A stretch of DNA of 64,000 nt. It comes from Thermalbibacter longus (GTDB taxonomy: Bacteria > Chloroflexota > Chloroflexia > Thermomicrobiales > Thermomicrobiaceae). The stretch spans positions 62,001-126,000 of the forward strand of contig NZ_JAMSLR010000008.1 in NCBI RefSeq assembly GCF_023806485.1, read 5' to 3'. The notes under the pieces were generated by a model. It saw only the letters and a program-made list of their open reading frames with translations. It had not been told where the DNA came from and did no database searches. The position numbers and the translations under genes were made by a program. Shown piece after piece: positions 57,299 through 63,038 of this stretch (positions are counted from its first letter, which is position 1; each line of letters begins with the position of its first letter).

Positions 57299-57330
57299 TT
57301 GACACGGCCAGTCGCTGCGGCGAAGATAGT
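57299..57330 (+). promoter_or_regulatory. Putative promoter of the B12-controlled operon
   Basis: A perfect -35 TTGACA at 57299-57304 is followed by AAGATA/GATAGT-like -10 candidates at 57323-57330. It lies about 55 bases upstream of the riboswitch P1 stem. The -10 is weak and its position not certain. Confidence 0.5.
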
Positions 57331-57382
57331 TCCATCAGGCCGTTCAGGCCGTTGTGCACGTTACCATCGCCGGTCAGAGAGA

Positions 57383-57533
57383 CGGCGGCGGGTGCCGGCT
57401 TCGTCCCCGAGCCAGAGCAGGCAACGGGGAGTAGCCGGTCCACATGGGGGAACACCGGTGCAAGTCCGGGGCTGTGCCGCAACTGTGATGCCGCGCCGAG
57501 CGCGCGGCGAAGCCAGGTCTACCATCGCCGCCG
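57383..57533 (+). promoter_or_regulatory. Cobalamin (B12) riboswitch
   Basis: Conserved aptamer features in order: GTGCCGGC..., GCCGGT, then GGGGAA followed by CCGGTGCAAGTCCGG (P5), GGGCTGTGCCGCAACTGTGA (core), a GC-rich P6-type hairpin (CCGCGC...GCGCGG), and the B12 box AAGCCAGGTCTACC at 57510-57523. P1 is an 8-bp perfect pairing of 57383-57390 with 57526-57533. An intrinsic terminator follows at 57607, so control by transcription attenuation is likely: B12 present, operon off. Confidence 0.92.
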
Positions 57534-57606
57534 TGTCCGACCTGCCTCGAGCTAAGGGGGGAGGACGCCAGTGACACGCTGTGCCTCATCACAGTGATCC
57601 ACCGGC

Positions 57607-57640
57607 AGCCCGCCCCGAGCGGGCTGTTTCATTTTGTTCA
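57607..57640 (+). terminator. Riboswitch-linked intrinsic terminator
   Basis: CAGCCCGC at 57607-57614 pairs with GCGGGCTG at 57620-57627, then TTTCATTTTGTT. It lies 73 bases after the aptamer P1 and about 165 bases before the first gene. Confidence 0.85.
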
Positions 57641-57803
57641 CTCGCTGGAGATCGATCGCCCGGGCCGCCGTGCAGGGTCGTCACCGTGCACCTGGACCAC
57701 GCCTGTCCCCCTAGGACTCGTTACGGTCGCTCGACTTGCGTCAGGCGATCGCCCTGCTGGCCTCGAGCAGCTCGTGGCGCTGCGGATGTGAAGTGGAGGG
57801 ATC

Positions 57804-59330
57804 ATGGTACGCTGCCTTATCGGAATTGTCCTCGCATGGGCGCTGCTCCTCGTTCCGGCCGTGCCTGCATCGGCCAACCTGGCCCCGGCGGCAGCCCTGG
57901 CCGACGCAGTTGAGTGGCTGCGCTCCCAGCAGCGACCCGATGGTGGCTTCGCTGGGCTCAGCGGTGAAAGCGACCCCTCGACCACAGCCGACGCAATCTA
58001 CGCGCTGGTGGCTACTGGTATCCCAGTTGAGAGCGTGAGGGCAGGTGGCAAGAGCCCGCTCGAGTTCCTGCTCACGCAGGCCGAGAGCTACAGCTCGACC
58101 ACGGGTGGCGCCGCCAAGCTGGCGTTGGCCGTCATCGCTGCCGGGGCAGATCCCCGCCAGTTCGGCGGCGTGGATCTGGTCGCGCGCATCGAAGGCGCGT
58201 ACGACACGCAGACCGGACTGTACGATCCCCAACTCTTCGTTAATGCCTACGCGCTGATGGCTATCGCCGCGGCAACCGACAACATGGTCCCTCAGGTTCC
58301 ACCGGCAGCGATCCAGGCAGTCTTGAGCCGCCAGGGGCCCGACGGAAGCTGGGCCTGGGATGGCAGCACCGACCCCGGCGCAGGAGACAGCAATACGACT
58401 GCGATCGTCATCCAGGCGCTGATCGCCGCCGGTCTACCTCGAGACCACCAGGCGATCGCCGCTGGCCTGGCGTACCTGCGTTCGGCACAAGCAGCAGATG
58501 GCTCGTTCGCCTACCAGCCCGGAGTCGACCATCTGGTTGGAGATGCCAACTCGACCGCGCTCGCTGTGCAGGCCATTCTGGCCGTCGGCGAAGACCCGAA
58601 CAGCTCGGACTGGCGTCACGCGCTCGACGCCCTGGCTCGTTTCCAGAACCCAGGTGGCGCCCTGCGCTGGCGTGACGACGCCCCAGACGATAGCTTGCTC
58701 GCTACGCTCCAGGCCATCCCGGCGCTGGCCGGCAGAGCCCTGCCCGTTCTCGACTCGGATGTCTCGCTGGTCGATCGGGCACGAGCCGATGAGATCCCGA
58801 GCAGCTCCGAACACTGCGCATACGAGTTGGTCACACGCCATAACGTGTGCGACGTGTTCCGTACCTTCTGGGAGTCGAACGGTGGGCTGGCCAACTTCGG
58901 GTACCCGTTGACCAGGCCCTACTACGAGCCAGCCCTCGGGACAGCGGTGCAGTACTTCGAGCGGGCTCGCTTCGAGCTGCACCGTGGGAGCGACGGAAGC
59001 GCGCTTGTGCTGCTCGGTCGCCTCGGTTCCGAGCGCGCGGTCGGGCGAGAGACCGAGTCACCGTTCAGACTGTCGAGCCCGATCGACCGCCCCGACTGCC
59101 TCTACTTCCCGGAGACGGGCCACAACCTCTGCGCCGGCTTCCGCGCGTACTGGGAGTCCTTCGGCGGCTTGGCCGTGTTCGGCTATCCGATCAGTGAGGA
59201 GTTCAACGAGGACGGGACAGTGGTGCAGTACTTCGAACGCGCGCGCTTCGAGTGGCACCCCGGGGTCTGGTCCGAGCGGTACGACGTGCTGTTGAGCCGG
59301 TTGGGCGCTGAGGTCGTCGAGGCTCGCTGA
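57804..59330 (+). CDS. Secreted alpha/alpha-barrel, transcobalamin-like protein with two GGLxxFGYP repeats (508 aa)
   Basis: GGAGGG before the ATG; a Sec signal peptide (MVRCLIGIVLAWALLLVPAVPASA) follows. Residues about 28-310 are prenyltransferase/squalene-cyclase repeats: AVEWLRSQQRPDGGFAGLSG, AIQAVLSRQGPDGSWAWDG, AGLAYLRSAQAADGSFAYQPG, with intervening STADAIYALVATG-like helices. This alpha6/alpha6-barrel family includes eukaryotic intrinsic factor and transcobalamin. The C-terminal part has two copies (from about 350 and 443) of FRxxWESxGGLxxFGYP...VQYFERARFExH, a repeat seen in secreted Chloroflexota proteins. There are no cyclase DxDD-type catalytic residues. Leading a riboswitch-controlled ECF operon, it probably binds cobalamin or a corrinoid outside the cell. 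Confidence 0.85.
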   Translation: MVRCLIGIVLAWALLLVPAVPASANLAPAAALADAVEWLRSQQRPDGGFAGLSGESDPSTTADAIYALVATGIPVESVRAGGKSPLEFLLTQAESYSSTTGGAAKLALAVIAAGADPRQFGGVDLVARIEGAYDTQTGLYDPQLFVNAYALMAIAAATDNMVPQVPPAAIQAVLSRQGPDGSWAWDGSTDPGAGDSNTTAIVIQALIAAGLPRDHQAIAAGLAYLRSAQAADGSFAYQPGVDHLVGDANSTALAVQAILAVGEDPNSSDWRHALDALARFQNPGGALRWRDDAPDDSLLATLQAIPALAGRALPVLDSDVSLVDRARADEIPSSSEHCAYELVTRHNVCDVFRTFWESNGGLANFGYPLTRPYYEPALGTAVQYFERARFELHRGSDGSALVLLGRLGSERAVGRETESPFRLSSPIDRPDCLYFPETGHNLCAGFRAYWESFGGLAVFGYPISEEFNEDGTVVQYFERARFEWHPGVWSERYDVLLSRLGAEVVEAR

Positions 59331-60286
59331 TGCGCCGGCTCGCTGGTCACCGGCCGTCACCCGTCGCTCGGGCCCTGCTGGCGCTTGCCCTGGCCTTCGC
59401 CCTGGCTCTGCCGGCGGCGGCACCCGGCGATGTCGTTGCCCAGCGGCCGAACGGCGCTGGCCTGGTCATTCGCCACGGCGACGGCCGTGTGTTCACCTAC
59501 TACGTCGAATTCACCGAAACAGAGATCACCGGGCTGGAGCTACTGATGCGCTCCGGTGCAGCCCTGGCCTTGGCCAATTTCGGCGGGCTGGGGACAGCAG
59601 TCTGCGCCATCGACGGCGAAGGATGCCCGGCCGACAACTGCTTCTGCCAGAGCTATGCCTCGCCGGCCTACTACTGGCACTATTTTCGCTTGGAGCCGGG
59701 TGGAACGTGGGTTTTGCAGCAGGTCGGGCCATCGAATCGGCAGGTGCGTGACGGCGATGTCGATGGCTGGTCCTGGACGAGCGGCGAGAGCGGCTTGCCC
59801 GCGATCTCGATCGACGAGATCGCGGCCCAACACGGCGTGGACCGCTCGGCCAGCACTGAGCCGACCGCGACTCCACTCGCCCCGTCCTCGCCAGCGCCGC
59901 CCGCGCCGACCAGCACGCCGCCGCCTGTCACCCCGGTATTGTCCCCAGTAGCTGGGACCGCTACGCCCCAGCCCGAGGGTTCTCCGACAGCGCTGGCTAC
60001 ACACACACCGTCGCCGGCGGCTCCTATGCCGGGTACACCTGAGGTAACGGCAACTGCCCGTGCAACTCCGGTGCCGGCGCCGTCACCGGCTAACCCGTCG
60101 ACTGCCCTGGGAGCGGACACGCCGGCTGCCCAGCCTACGCCAGCAGCGCCCTCCAGTTCGCCTCAAGCGTCATCTCAAGTCTCGAACTATTTCTTCTTCG
60201 CAGCCATGCTATCGGCTCTGCTCGGCCTGGCGGGGTGGCTTGCGTGGCGCCGCAGCGACGACTCGTCGGAAGGCAGCGGCACATGA
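59330..60286 (+). CDS. Membrane-tethered DUF4430-like protein (318 aa)
   Basis: Starts at the A of the previous stop (overlap TGATG). A signal peptide ends near AAAPGDVVA. Residues about 35-150 match the DUF4430 beta domain, the C-terminal domain of transcobalamin-type proteins: GLVIRHGDGRVFTYYVEF, ALANFGGLGTAVCAIDGEGC, then ASPAYYWHYFRLEPGGTWVLQQVGPSNRQVRDGDVDGWSW. A cysteine cluster (CAIDGEGCPADNCFC) is notable. A Thr/Pro-rich linker of about 95 residues leads to one membrane helix (FFFAAMLSALLGLAGWLAW) and a short cytoplasmic tail. It probably forms the second half of the B12-binding site together with the preceding protein and holds it near the importer. Confidence 0.8.
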   Translation: MRRLAGHRPSPVARALLALALAFALALPAAAPGDVVAQRPNGAGLVIRHGDGRVFTYYVEFTETEITGLELLMRSGAALALANFGGLGTAVCAIDGEGCPADNCFCQSYASPAYYWHYFRLEPGGTWVLQQVGPSNRQVRDGDVDGWSWTSGESGLPAISIDEIAAQHGVDRSASTEPTATPLAPSSPAPPAPTSTPPPVTPVLSPVAGTATPQPEGSPTALATHTPSPAAPMPGTPEVTATARATPVPAPSPANPSTALGADTPAAQPTPAAPSSSPQASSQVSNYFFFAAMLSALLGLAGWLAWRRSDDSSEGSGT

Positions 60287-61278
60287 ACGCGCTGATTTGG
60301 CTCGCGTGGGCTGCGGCCACGATGCTCGGCGTCGCGGTCACGCGCAACCCGCTGTATCTGAGCCTCGCGCTGGCAGCGTCGGTCAGCACCTACCTCGCAG
60401 TCAACCTACGCCGGCCGCTCGGCCGGCCACCGGCCAGGTTGCCGTTGCAGATCGGCCTGGTCGTCGCGATCTCTAGCATCGTCTTCAACGCCCTGACCGC
60501 GCACGTCGGCGACTTGGTACTCGGGCGCCTGCCTTCGGGCTGGCCGATCGTCGGTGGGCCGATCACGCTCAACGCCGTGCTCTACGGGTTACTGACAGCA
60601 ATCGTGCTCCTGACTCTCCTGATTACGGGCGCGGTGCTCGACGGCGCGCTCGACCGCGCTCAGGCCTTGCGCCTCGTTCCGCCCGCCTTCGGCTCCGCCA
60701 CCACCAGCCTGGCCCTGGCACTCACGGCCTTACCGATGGCCGCCCGCGCCGTGCGCGAGGTTCAGGAGGCCCAGCAGGCACGCGGGCTCTCCGGCCCGGC
60801 AGCGCTTCGCCTCCGCGCAATCCTGGTGCCTGTGCTGCACCGCGGGCTGGAGCACGCCATCGCGGTCGCCGAAACTCTCGAGTGCCGCGGCTTCGGCGCC
60901 GACGCTCCCTCGCGGCAGGCGCGCTGGCTGATGCTCGCCACGCTCGGGAGTCTCTGCATCCTGGTGCTCGGCATGATTACGGGAGACGGCCGGCTGGCCG
61001 GAACGGGTCTTCTCGCCGCTAGCCTCGCGATCTGCTTTATGGGCCGAGGTACCTGGACAGGTGTCCGGCGCCTGCGCTGGTACCGTCGGGAGAAAGGTCT
61101 GCTCGCGGTGGTGTTGGGCAGCATCGTGATTTTGATCGGCACCCTGGCTCTGGCACCCGAGCAACTGTCGTACAGCACCTACCCGTGGTTGCGATGGCCT
61201 CCGTTCCAGCCGGTCATCGGACTGGCTTACCTGTCGCTGGCTGCGCCCGCTCTCTGGCTGTCCGGGGGACGCTCATGA
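60283..61278 (+). CDS. ecfT: ECF transporter transmembrane subunit EcfT (331 aa)
   Basis: ATGA overlap with the previous stop. Hydrophobic helices surround the two cytoplasmic coupling helices with the EcfT signatures: VREVQEAQQARGLSG and EHAIAVAETLECRGFGAD, both ending in the conserved RG. These dock on the two ATPase halves. The family (also CbiQ) drives vitamin or metal uptake with a separate substrate-binding S protein. B12 control suggests cobalamin or precursor transport. An S component is not encoded in this operon. Confidence 0.9.
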   Translation: MNALIWLAWAAATMLGVAVTRNPLYLSLALAASVSTYLAVNLRRPLGRPPARLPLQIGLVVAISSIVFNALTAHVGDLVLGRLPSGWPIVGGPITLNAVLYGLLTAIVLLTLLITGAVLDGALDRAQALRLVPPAFGSATTSLALALTALPMAARAVREVQEAQQARGLSGPAALRLRAILVPVLHRGLEHAIAVAETLECRGFGADAPSRQARWLMLATLGSLCILVLGMITGDGRLAGTGLLAASLAICFMGRGTWTGVRRLRWYRREKGLLAVVLGSIVILIGTLALAPEQLSYSTYPWLRWPPFQPVIGLAYLSLAAPALWLSGGRS

Positions 61279-63038
61279 TTCAGGCAGAGTATCTCAGCTA
61301 CCGCTACCCACGACAGGACACCGCTGCCCTCCAGGACGTGTGCTGGCGGGTAGAAGAAGGGGAATTCGTCCTGCTCGCCGGCGCCTCGGGGTCCGGCAAG
61401 ACCACCCTGCTGCGTAGCTTGAACGGGTTAGTGCCACACTTCCACGGTGGCACCTTCGGGGGTCGGGTACTGGTCGCCGGCCTGGATACGCGAGAACAGA
61501 GCACCGCGCAGCTCAGCCGGCAGGTCGGCTTCGTCGCGCAGGACCCCGAGTCGCAAACCTTGCTCGATCGAGTAACCGACGAGATTGCTTTCGGCCTCGA
61601 GAATCTCGGTTACGACGAGCGGACGATCCGGCTTAGGTTGGAGGAAGCTCTAGACCTGCTCGGGATCGCTCACCTGCGAGACCGCCGGCTGCAGACCCTC
61701 TCGGGTGGCGAGCGCCAGCGAGTCGCGCTGGCCGCGACGCTCGCATTCCGGCCGCGCATCCTTGCCCTCGACGAACCTACCTCGCAGCTCGACCCCTGGG
61801 CGGCTGAGTCAGTTATCGACGCGCTCAGGCGGCTGGTCGATGACCTGGGGTTGACGATCGTGCTAGCCGAGCAGCGGCTCGAGCGCGTCCTGGGTCTGTG
61901 TAGCCGGATCACGCTCCTCGGTCCGAATGGCCGGTTGGAACGCGATGGTTCGCCGGAGGCAATCGCGCCCGAGCTCCCCTGGCCGCCGCCGCTCGTTCGG
62001 TTAAGCCTGGCGTTAGGCTGGCGACCAGTGCCGCTCACGGTCCGGCAAGCACGAGAGCAGGCGCGTCGTCATGGGCCGGTTCTCTGGGCAGGCGATCCTG
62101 CCCCCAGCGCTCGCCGCCCGGACGGCCCACCGGTCGTCGAGCTCGAGCGGATCTGGGTACGAGCGAGCCAAGGATGGGCACTCGAAGACGTATCGCTCGC
62201 GATCTATCCTGGTACGGTTACGGTCCTGATGGGCCGCAACGGGGCCGGCAAGACCACGCTCTTGAGGCAGATCAACGGACTCCAAAAGCCTGATCGGGGT
62301 CGCGTCGTTGTCCTCGGTCGCGATGCAGCTCGCCTGTCCAGGATAGAGCTCGCCCGAATGGTCGGCTACGTTCCCCAGCATCCCGCGAGCATCCTCTTCA
62401 GCGAGTCCGTGCGCGAGGAGCTGCTGGTGACGCTCCGCGCTCGCGGGCACCGGGACAACGGGGTAGAGTGGACGCTCGAGCGGCTGGGGCTAGCGGGGCA
62501 CGCTGCCCGCCATCCCTATGATCTCAGTGGAGGGGAACGGCAGCGCGCTGCTCTGGCTGCTGTGCTGGTCGGCGGTCCGCCGATCCTGCTGCTCGATGAG
62601 CCGACCCGCGGCCTCGACCCAGAGCGCAAGGCGAACCTCGGGCATCTTCTTCGGGAACTGTCATCGGAGGGTCGGGCCATCGTGGTCGCGACCCACGATG
62701 TCGAGTTCGCGGCCACCTGGGCTGACCGGATCGTCTTCCTGGCCGCAGGCCGCGTCGTGGCTGAAGGGACGCCAGCCGAGCTCCTCGCTGGTACCCTGGC
62801 CTACAGCTCGCAGATCAACCGCGTGTTCGGGGGATCTTTCCTGACCGTCGAAGACGTTCTCGTGGCGACGTGCCAGTCTTCCCGCCCGAGGGAGACCGCG
62901 AGAACCTCCCGACAGGATCGCCCCGGCGTAGAACGCTCGCCTAGGCTGGTGGCGAGCCACGGATCTGCGAGGGGAGGCGCAGTGCCACCGGAGGCTTCGG
63001 AAACGCGTGCAGATCAGGAAGTCGAGTTACGTCGGTAA
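61275..63038 (+). CDS. ecfAA: Fused ECF ATPase with two ABC domains (587 aa)
   Basis: ATGA overlap with ecfT. Domain 1: Walker A GASGSGKTT (36-44), Q-loop VAQDPESQTLLDRVTDE, signature LSGGERQRVALA (142-153), Walker B ILALDEPTS. The switch His is replaced by Gln (VLAEQRLERVL, Q200). Domain 2, from about residue 285: Walker A GRNGAGKTT, VPQHPASILFSESV, LSGGERQRAALA, ILLLDEPTRGLD, intact H-loop VVATHDVEF. So one half has an altered switch residue. The last 60 residues are an Arg/Pro-rich tail that overlaps the convergent gene at 62941. Confidence 0.92.
   Translation: MIQAEYLSYRYPRQDTAALQDVCWRVEEGEFVLLAGASGSGKTTLLRSLNGLVPHFHGGTFGGRVLVAGLDTREQSTAQLSRQVGFVAQDPESQTLLDRVTDEIAFGLENLGYDERTIRLRLEEALDLLGIAHLRDRRLQTLSGGERQRVALAATLAFRPRILALDEPTSQLDPWAAESVIDALRRLVDDLGLTIVLAEQRLERVLGLCSRITLLGPNGRLERDGSPEAIAPELPWPPPLVRLSLALGWRPVPLTVRQAREQARRHGPVLWAGDPAPSARRPDGPPVVELERIWVRASQGWALEDVSLAIYPGTVTVLMGRNGAGKTTLLRQINGLQKPDRGRVVVLGRDAARLSRIELARMVGYVPQHPASILFSESVREELLVTLRARGHRDNGVEWTLERLGLAGHAARHPYDLSGGERQRAALAAVLVGGPPILLLDEPTRGLDPERKANLGHLLRELSSEGRAIVVATHDVEFAATWADRIVFLAAGRVVAEGTPAELLAGTLAYSSQINRVFGGSFLTVEDVLVATCQSSRPRETARTSRQDRPGVERSPRLVASHGSARGGAVPPEASETRADQEVELRR

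Follow-up and report, generated by a model that had tools for sequence, protein, structure and literature searches.

The well-studied energy-coupling factor (ECF) transporters are described as relying on no more than the membrane S component to catch their vitamin. In 2007, Burroughs et al. described bacterial SLBB proteins of a transcobalamin-like type that carry signal peptides and anchors, including toroid fusions in either order (PMC1796856). Their genes shared operons with relatives of CbiO and CbiQ, the hosts usually lacked key B12 biosynthesis enzymes, and both B12 scavenging and a transfer of transcobalamin from bacteria to animals were proposed (PMC1796856). Passages on the acI Actinobacteria, which do not produce cobalamin, place an ECF module downstream of cobalamin riboswitches (PMC5301498). 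A publication of 2013 had also recorded cobalamin regulons in Chloroflexi, among them a B12 transporter under riboswitch control in Herpetosiphon (PMC3766115). Here we analysed a stretch of 64,000 nucleotides (the window) from Thermalbibacter longus, covering positions 62001–126000 of contig NZ_JAMSLR010000008.1 in a 3.63 Mb genome that is 99.93% complete. From 57416 to 63038 on the plus strand, the window carries a riboswitch aptamer, a terminator and then four genes with overlapping ends, which encode a secreted toroid protein, a membrane-anchored beta protein and two parts of an ECF transporter.

We consider this operon, with a probability of about 0.8, to encode an ECF importer for cobalamin or a corrinoid whose extracellular receptor consists of two pieces, the toroid and beta proteins. 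The riboswitch, the terminator, the operon, the folds, the fused relatives, the S component and the conservation across the phylum were computed directly. The initial annotation of this DNA, made from the letters and their open reading frames, had proposed surface capture of a corrinoid feeding an ECF transporter. That functional reading was supported by the AdoCbl (adenosylcobalamin) aptamer, the lack of cyclase acids, the beta fold, the fused chains, a CbrT-like S component and the B12 genes of the genome; binding and hand-over would be steps that we infer. Its further statement that no such bacterial B12 system had been described does not stand, as the concept is already found in Burroughs et al. 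2007 (PMC1796856). The features of the operon are as follows (aa, amino acids).

57416–57570, plus strand: AdoCbl/cobalamin riboswitch aptamer (RF01482 and covariance model R1 from orthologues)
57604–57638, plus strand: intrinsic terminator, the expression platform (10-pair stem and T-rich tail)
57804–59330, plus strand: secreted alpha/alpha-toroid protein, 508 aa (ATG start with GGAGG just upstream; Pfam)
57804–57875, plus strand: predicted signal peptide of the toroid protein (MVRCLIGIVLAWALLLVPAVPASA)
57876–58752, plus strand: toroid domain, with DSNT replacing the cyclase DXDD (alignments A1 and A8; fold of a homologous fused protein)
58837–59264, plus strand: two LGFP-like repeats that may attach the protein to the cell wall (Pfam LGFP at 17.8 bits, short of the cut-off of 22)
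59330–60286, plus strand: membrane-anchored beta protein, 318 aa (sequence; weak match to NCBIfam SCO2322_fam, E 1e-4)
59435–59851, plus strand: beta domain of the transcobalamin/DUF4430-type fold (AlphaFold and Foldseek)
60185–60247, plus strand: predicted C-terminal membrane helix of the beta protein, followed by RR (NYFFFAAMLSALLGLAGWLAWRR)
60283–61278, plus strand: EcfT, CbiQ-type membrane coupling subunit, 331 aa (Pfam CbiQ, weak, E 0.0013; operon position conserved)
61275–63038, plus strand: fused EcfA-EcfA ATPase, 587 aa (two ABC_tran domains, E 5e-62; TIGR04520 ECF ATPase above cut-off)

Riboswitch, terminator and operon

The AdoCbl model RF01482 aligned end to end with positions 57423–57570 on the plus strand at 44.3 bits (E 9e-7) under relaxed thresholds. 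The aptamer did not reach the Rfam gathering score of either model of clan CL00101 (44.3 vs 50 bits for RF01482; 25.6 vs 31.5 bits for RF00174), and a default Rfam scan of the window returned tRNAs only and no riboswitch. Orthologous leaders of other genera passed Rfam's own cut-offs (5 in one set and 11 in another). A covariance model (R1), built from 15 orthologous leaders with the window's genus excluded and partly overlapping with the 80-locus set described below, matched the window at 57416–57550 with 97.3 bits (E 6e-25), which shows an aptamer core in common with the orthologous leaders. The B12 riboswitch of the initial annotation was thus recovered as an AdoCbl-type aptamer, though one below the Rfam gathering scores, and its extent was corrected, with 57299–57415 lying outside the aptamer. 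Free folding of the whole leader gave a stability no greater than that of shuffled sequences; the evidence for the riboswitch is for this reason one of conservation and not of energy, and no antiterminator was assigned. Judged by its sequence, the aptamer is an AdoCbl-type riboswitch that looks functional. The R1 and Rfam models found no second cobalamin riboswitch elsewhere in the whole genome. Leaders of this kind in the Thermomicrobiaceae are missed by default annotation, as they fall below the gathering cut-offs of both RF01482 and RF00174.

The terminator consists of a 10-pair stem at 57604–57628 followed by TCATTTTGTT, one such element being found against 0.2 expected. Its hairpin, GGCAGCCCGCCCCGnGCGGGCTGTT, is conserved in seven close relatives, which agrees with the terminator proposed in the initial annotation, and a terminator-like hairpin was located 3' of the aptamer in 27 of 33 loci versus 9% of shuffled sequences. 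Downstream, the gene junctions read TGATG, ATGA and ATGA, as expected from the ATGA-type overlaps that had been described. The EcfT and the fused EcfA pair were also found as claimed, the former through a weak CbiQ match and the latter through two ABC_tran domains and TIGR04520 above its cut-off. The locus hence has an ECF ATPase pair together with an EcfT that is weakly CbiQ-like and conserved in position, two of the components by which an ECF transporter is recognised. No S component is encoded in the window operon.

The nearest named relatives at the operon locus belong to the Thermomicrobiaceae (Chloroflexota), and a survey of 158 genomes of the class found the toroid gene in 93. Most of 40 regions extracted from class genomes had the gene order toroid, beta, EcfT and fused EcfA, as did the majority of 80 named loci in public genomes, which are almost all from Chloroflexota. 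Toroid and beta genes co-occurred almost without exception. Upstream of the toroid gene, the R1 model detected an aptamer on the same strand at 73 of the 80 named loci, with a median distance of 243 nucleotides to the toroid domain (600 nucleotides or less in 66 loci); four of the seven loci lacking an aptamer begin too near a contig end. The search for the toroid/beta pair beside B12 riboswitches in other genomes, which the initial annotation had suggested, was in this way answered positively. The system was also seen on short contigs (<4 kb) in metagenome-assembled genomes of other phyla (L081, Gemmatimonadales; L093, Gracilibacteria), and binning errors are a more likely source of these two occurrences than transfer.

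Toroid and beta proteins

The toroid protein matched the Pfam families SQHop_cyclase_C/N and Prenyltrans, all above cut-off. This bears out the alpha/alpha barrel with squalene-cyclase-type repeats described in the initial annotation, which had overlooked the two LGFP-like repeats. The latter assignment is based on internal repeats at 58837–58988 and 59119–59264; such repeats are mostly confined to the window's own family, and they may attach the toroid protein to the cell wall. In an alignment with squalene-hopene cyclase, the catalytic DVDD falls opposite the D-x-N-T of the toroid. DTNT or DSNT was present in 67 of the 67 toroids examined and DxDD nowhere in these sequences; the check for cyclase catalytic acids, named in the initial annotation as a refuting condition, thus found them absent. 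The NCBIfam family SCO2321 scored 93.9 bits, far below its curated cut-off of 300. When the toroid profile was compared with PDB chains, squalene-hopene and related cyclases were the best matches and transcobalamin was not matched. At position 123 of alignment A8, where the window protein has Asn, 38 of 67 relatives have His, a possible cobalt ligand in the members carrying it.

The beta protein comprises a signal peptide, the beta domain, a Pro/Thr-rich linker and a C-terminal membrane helix. The AlphaFold model of the beta domain had a predicted local distance difference test (pLDDT) value of 95 and a predicted template modelling (pTM) score of 0.89. Foldseek matches with E ≤ 0.001 were restricted to 3u7z, a DUF4430-type structure, and transcobalamin chains, with haptocorrin and intrinsic factor next. 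The matches of the domain include 3u7z, 7qbe, 5no0 and 4zrp, and the Foldseek probability was 1.00 against 5no0, 4zrp, 2bb5, 4kki and 2pmv. The proposed comparison of the beta domain with transcobalamin was thereby carried out and returned the fold of the transcobalamin beta domains. Viewed as secondary structure only, the order strand-strand-helix-hairpin-strands corresponds to a beta-grasp with a hairpin after the helix, the build of the transcobalamin-like SLBB clade (PMC1796856). The DUF4430-like label of the initial annotation holds for the fold, through 3u7z, and fails for the sequence: Pfam scans of 60 beta domains gave no DUF4430 or other convincing match, and the sequence profile of the domain did not match transcobalamin among PDB chains. 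NCBIfam SCO2322 reached 22.7 bits with the beta protein, far below the curated cut-off of 85.

Four cysteines of the beta domain are nearly invariant and would form two disulphides; C64 and C71 were lost jointly in one of 60 aligned members, and both positions also differ in the fused chain of L140, which lies outside the 60-member alignment. At window-sequence positions 23 and 130 of alignment A3, Cys was observed in 32 and 30 of 60 members, respectively, perhaps as a third disulphide.

Toroid and beta are separate proteins in most relatives, and in eight Anaerolineae/Caldilineae-type loci they follow each other, beta then toroid, in one open frame. The toroid fold was modelled on one of these fused homologues (L132:3592-4830) and not on the window protein. 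The model was built from alignment A4 alone; adding the separate beta proteins misplaced their C-terminal ends. Since the fused model had a pLDDT of 94 and a pTM of 0.92, its two-domain arrangement is confident. In Foldseek, the toroid part matched cyclases first and transcobalamin and haptocorrin next, and the beta part matched 3u7z.

Two further forms were seen among the relatives. Doubled toroids of about 770–790 aa, with two toroids per chain, are encoded in the same class (L064:4425-6728, L065:4284-6626 and L066:4610-6979), with beta, EcfT and sometimes EcfA genes nearby. In Herpetosiphon-type genomes, a second toroid gene has neither a beta gene nor ECF genes beside it (L058:4634-5788 and L060:4618-5826).

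S component, import model and alternatives

In Anaerolineae-type operons, an open reading frame of 257–304 aa between the beta and EcfT genes matched PF12822. When the window's genome was searched with a profile made from eight of these operon S components, a single orthologue emerged (C23:37912-38682; E 7e-84), which also belongs to PF12822. Among 177,635 PDB sequences, the sole match of the S profile was 6fnp chain A, the CbrT of ECF-CbrT (E 5e-5). The three other PF12822 genes of the genome each have their own EcfT within about 3 kb and the C23 S component has none nearby; by exclusion, the latter is therefore the natural partner of the window EcfT. Its gene overlaps a BtuF-like gene, start on stop, and the pair of S component and BtuF-like gene was also found in six other genomes of the family. 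One such BtuF-like protein of the Thermomicrobiaceae, at L160:5695-6630 on the minus strand, is translationally coupled to the S component and has no evident signal peptide. The surroundings of the S component gene yielded no cobalamin riboswitch. Toroid and S component tend to occur together, the S component being present in 77 of 93 toroid-bearing genomes vs 7 of 65 other genomes of the class (Fisher p 2e-20, uncorrected for kinship and incomplete genomes).

Other genes of the genome and of relatives also relate to B12, including the CobC- and CobS-type genes considered below. A methylmalonyl-CoA-mutase B12-binding subunit, MeaB and a CobO/BtuR-type adenosyltransferase are encoded side by side in the window's genome. 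The corrin-ring enzyme CbiC was not found in it, and 35 of the 158 class genomes had a match. In an actinobacterial metagenome-assembled genome (L139), the genes for toroid, EcfT, EcfA and S component stand in a row, and one for a corrinoid adenosyltransferase comes next.

These elements would combine into an importer as follows. At high intracellular AdoCbl, the terminator would form and switch the operon off, as suggested by the aptamer and the hairpin, and at low AdoCbl read-through would allow the four genes to be made. The toroid protein would be exported and the beta protein anchored to the external face of the membrane by its C-terminal helix. Together they may bind and close on one corrinoid at the cell surface, as the domains of transcobalamin and intrinsic factor do, a step suggested by the folds and the fusions. 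The corrinoid would then be handed to the CbrT-like S component, encoded elsewhere beside the BtuF-like gene, and EcfT and the EcfA pair, going by what is known of the family, would drive the S component with ATP to import it. The fuller proposal is that import depends on a dedicated receptor in which a wall-associated toroid protein and a membrane-anchored beta protein clamp a single corrinoid and pass it to the CbrT-like S component, and that the split, fused and double-toroid forms of Chloroflexota then show how the one-chain B12 carriers of animals could have assembled. We regard this proposal as evenly poised between right and wrong.

Some observations weigh against an importer with a two-piece receptor. 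The S component is encoded away from the window operon, with no riboswitch before it, and its pairing with the operon rests on exclusion and on relatives. Foldseek places the toroid nearer to squalene cyclases than to transcobalamin, both being matched, and sequence profiles link neither the toroid nor the beta domain to transcobalamin. Finally, the genome encodes an additional FecCD-type importer, with an iron/molybdate-like binding protein. This FecCD-type system was considered as a candidate for the real B12 importer; its binding protein is closest to the iron/molybdate type, and no riboswitch is associated with it.

Of the alternatives, a machine of the same build that mainly carries cobinamide, a different cobamide or some further corrinoid in place of B12, to be finished inside by salvage enzymes, is unlikely but deserves consideration. 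The operons of Oscillochloris and a related genome contain CobC- and CobS-type genes between beta and EcfT, and ECF-CbrT carries cobinamide besides cobalamin (PMC5997447). No CobC- or CobS-type genes were seen in the window operon, however, and the riboswitch senses the finished coenzyme, which is compatible with either cargo.

It is less probable still that the S component, EcfT and EcfA import B12 alone, with the toroid and beta proteins binding corrinoids separately or in an accessory role, for example cell-wall storage, and forming no sandwich. Fused beta-toroid chains with a confident joint model argue against this, as does the near-constant company of the two genes. In its favour, ECF-CbrT works without a soluble receptor (PMC5997447), toroid and beta are on separate chains in most relatives, and the LGFP-like repeats could anchor the toroid protein in the wall.

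Two further explanations were rejected as very improbable. A cobalt-ion importer of the CbiMNQO kind would fit the matches of EcfT and EcfA to CbiQ and CbiO models and the known place of such importers among B12-riboswitch targets (PMC3766115), but CbiM and CbiN are absent from the operon, the S component resembles CbrT, and a genome lacking CbiC would have little need of cobalt for making corrins. A toroid protein that only shares the operon, as a secreted terpene cyclase or some unrelated enzyme of the surface, would agree with squalene-hopene and related cyclases as the best sequence and fold matches of the toroid, but the general-acid DXDD is replaced by DxNT in 67 of 67 homologues, the protein has a signal peptide, relatives fuse the toroid to a transcobalamin-type domain, and toroid genes are kept under B12 riboswitches.

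Comparison with known systems

If an importer with a two-piece surface receptor is correct, an extramembrane receptor would add a capture stage to ECF import, like that provided by the binding proteins of classical ABC (ATP-binding cassette) importers. The system easily escapes annotation, with its riboswitch under the Rfam cut-off and its beta domain without a Pfam family. The source organisms are partly thermophiles (relatives of Thermomicrobium), so the proteins should suit binding assays and crystallography. The best solved matches of the beta domain being the animal B12 carriers and 3u7z, work on binding and structure would test the 2007 proposal of a transfer of transcobalamin from bacteria to animals. 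No experimental test of the receptor was found in the literature searched. As far as that literature shows, it is new that Chloroflexota have the receptor in split form, with a beta domain that no Pfam family covers and under a riboswitch and terminator, that a CbrT-like S component is identified for it, and that the forms range from split to fused and double-toroid; earlier naming in regulon databases is possible.

The window system resembles ECF-CbrT of Lactobacillus delbrueckii (PMC5997447) in being an ECF importer with a related S component. ECF-CbrT uses a shared ECF module and has no extracellular receptor (PMC5997447), whereas the window encodes a putative receptor pair. As in the acI Actinobacteria, a B12 riboswitch stands ahead of the ECF module; the passages of that source on acI mention no toroid or beta protein (PMC5301498). 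The toroid and beta proteins matched the NCBIfam families SCO2321 and SCO2322 weakly, both far below the curated cut-offs. With the squalene-hopene cyclase family, the toroid protein shares its fold and repeats; unlike squalene-hopene cyclase, it lacks DXDD, has a signal peptide and contains a single toroid domain.

The closest similarity is to the SLBB type of Burroughs et al., in which exported toroid and beta-grasp proteins are likewise encoded with CbiQ-like and CbiO-like genes. Those systems include toroid-beta fusions in either order and operons that encode a further extracellular beta protein (PMC1796856), and they were described for low-GC Gram-positives, planctomycetes and some archaea, whereas the window system belongs to the Chloroflexota. 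The window system differs further in its separate toroid and beta chains, a beta domain unmatched by Pfam DUF4430, a demonstrated riboswitch and terminator, and an identified S component. Like animal transcobalamin, intrinsic factor and haptocorrin, it combines an alpha/alpha toroid with a beta domain of the same fold, although no significant sequence similarity to these carriers was found with PDB profiles or with Pfam for the 60 beta domains. The animal carriers are one chain with the toroid first, whereas the window has two chains and its fused relatives place the beta domain first.

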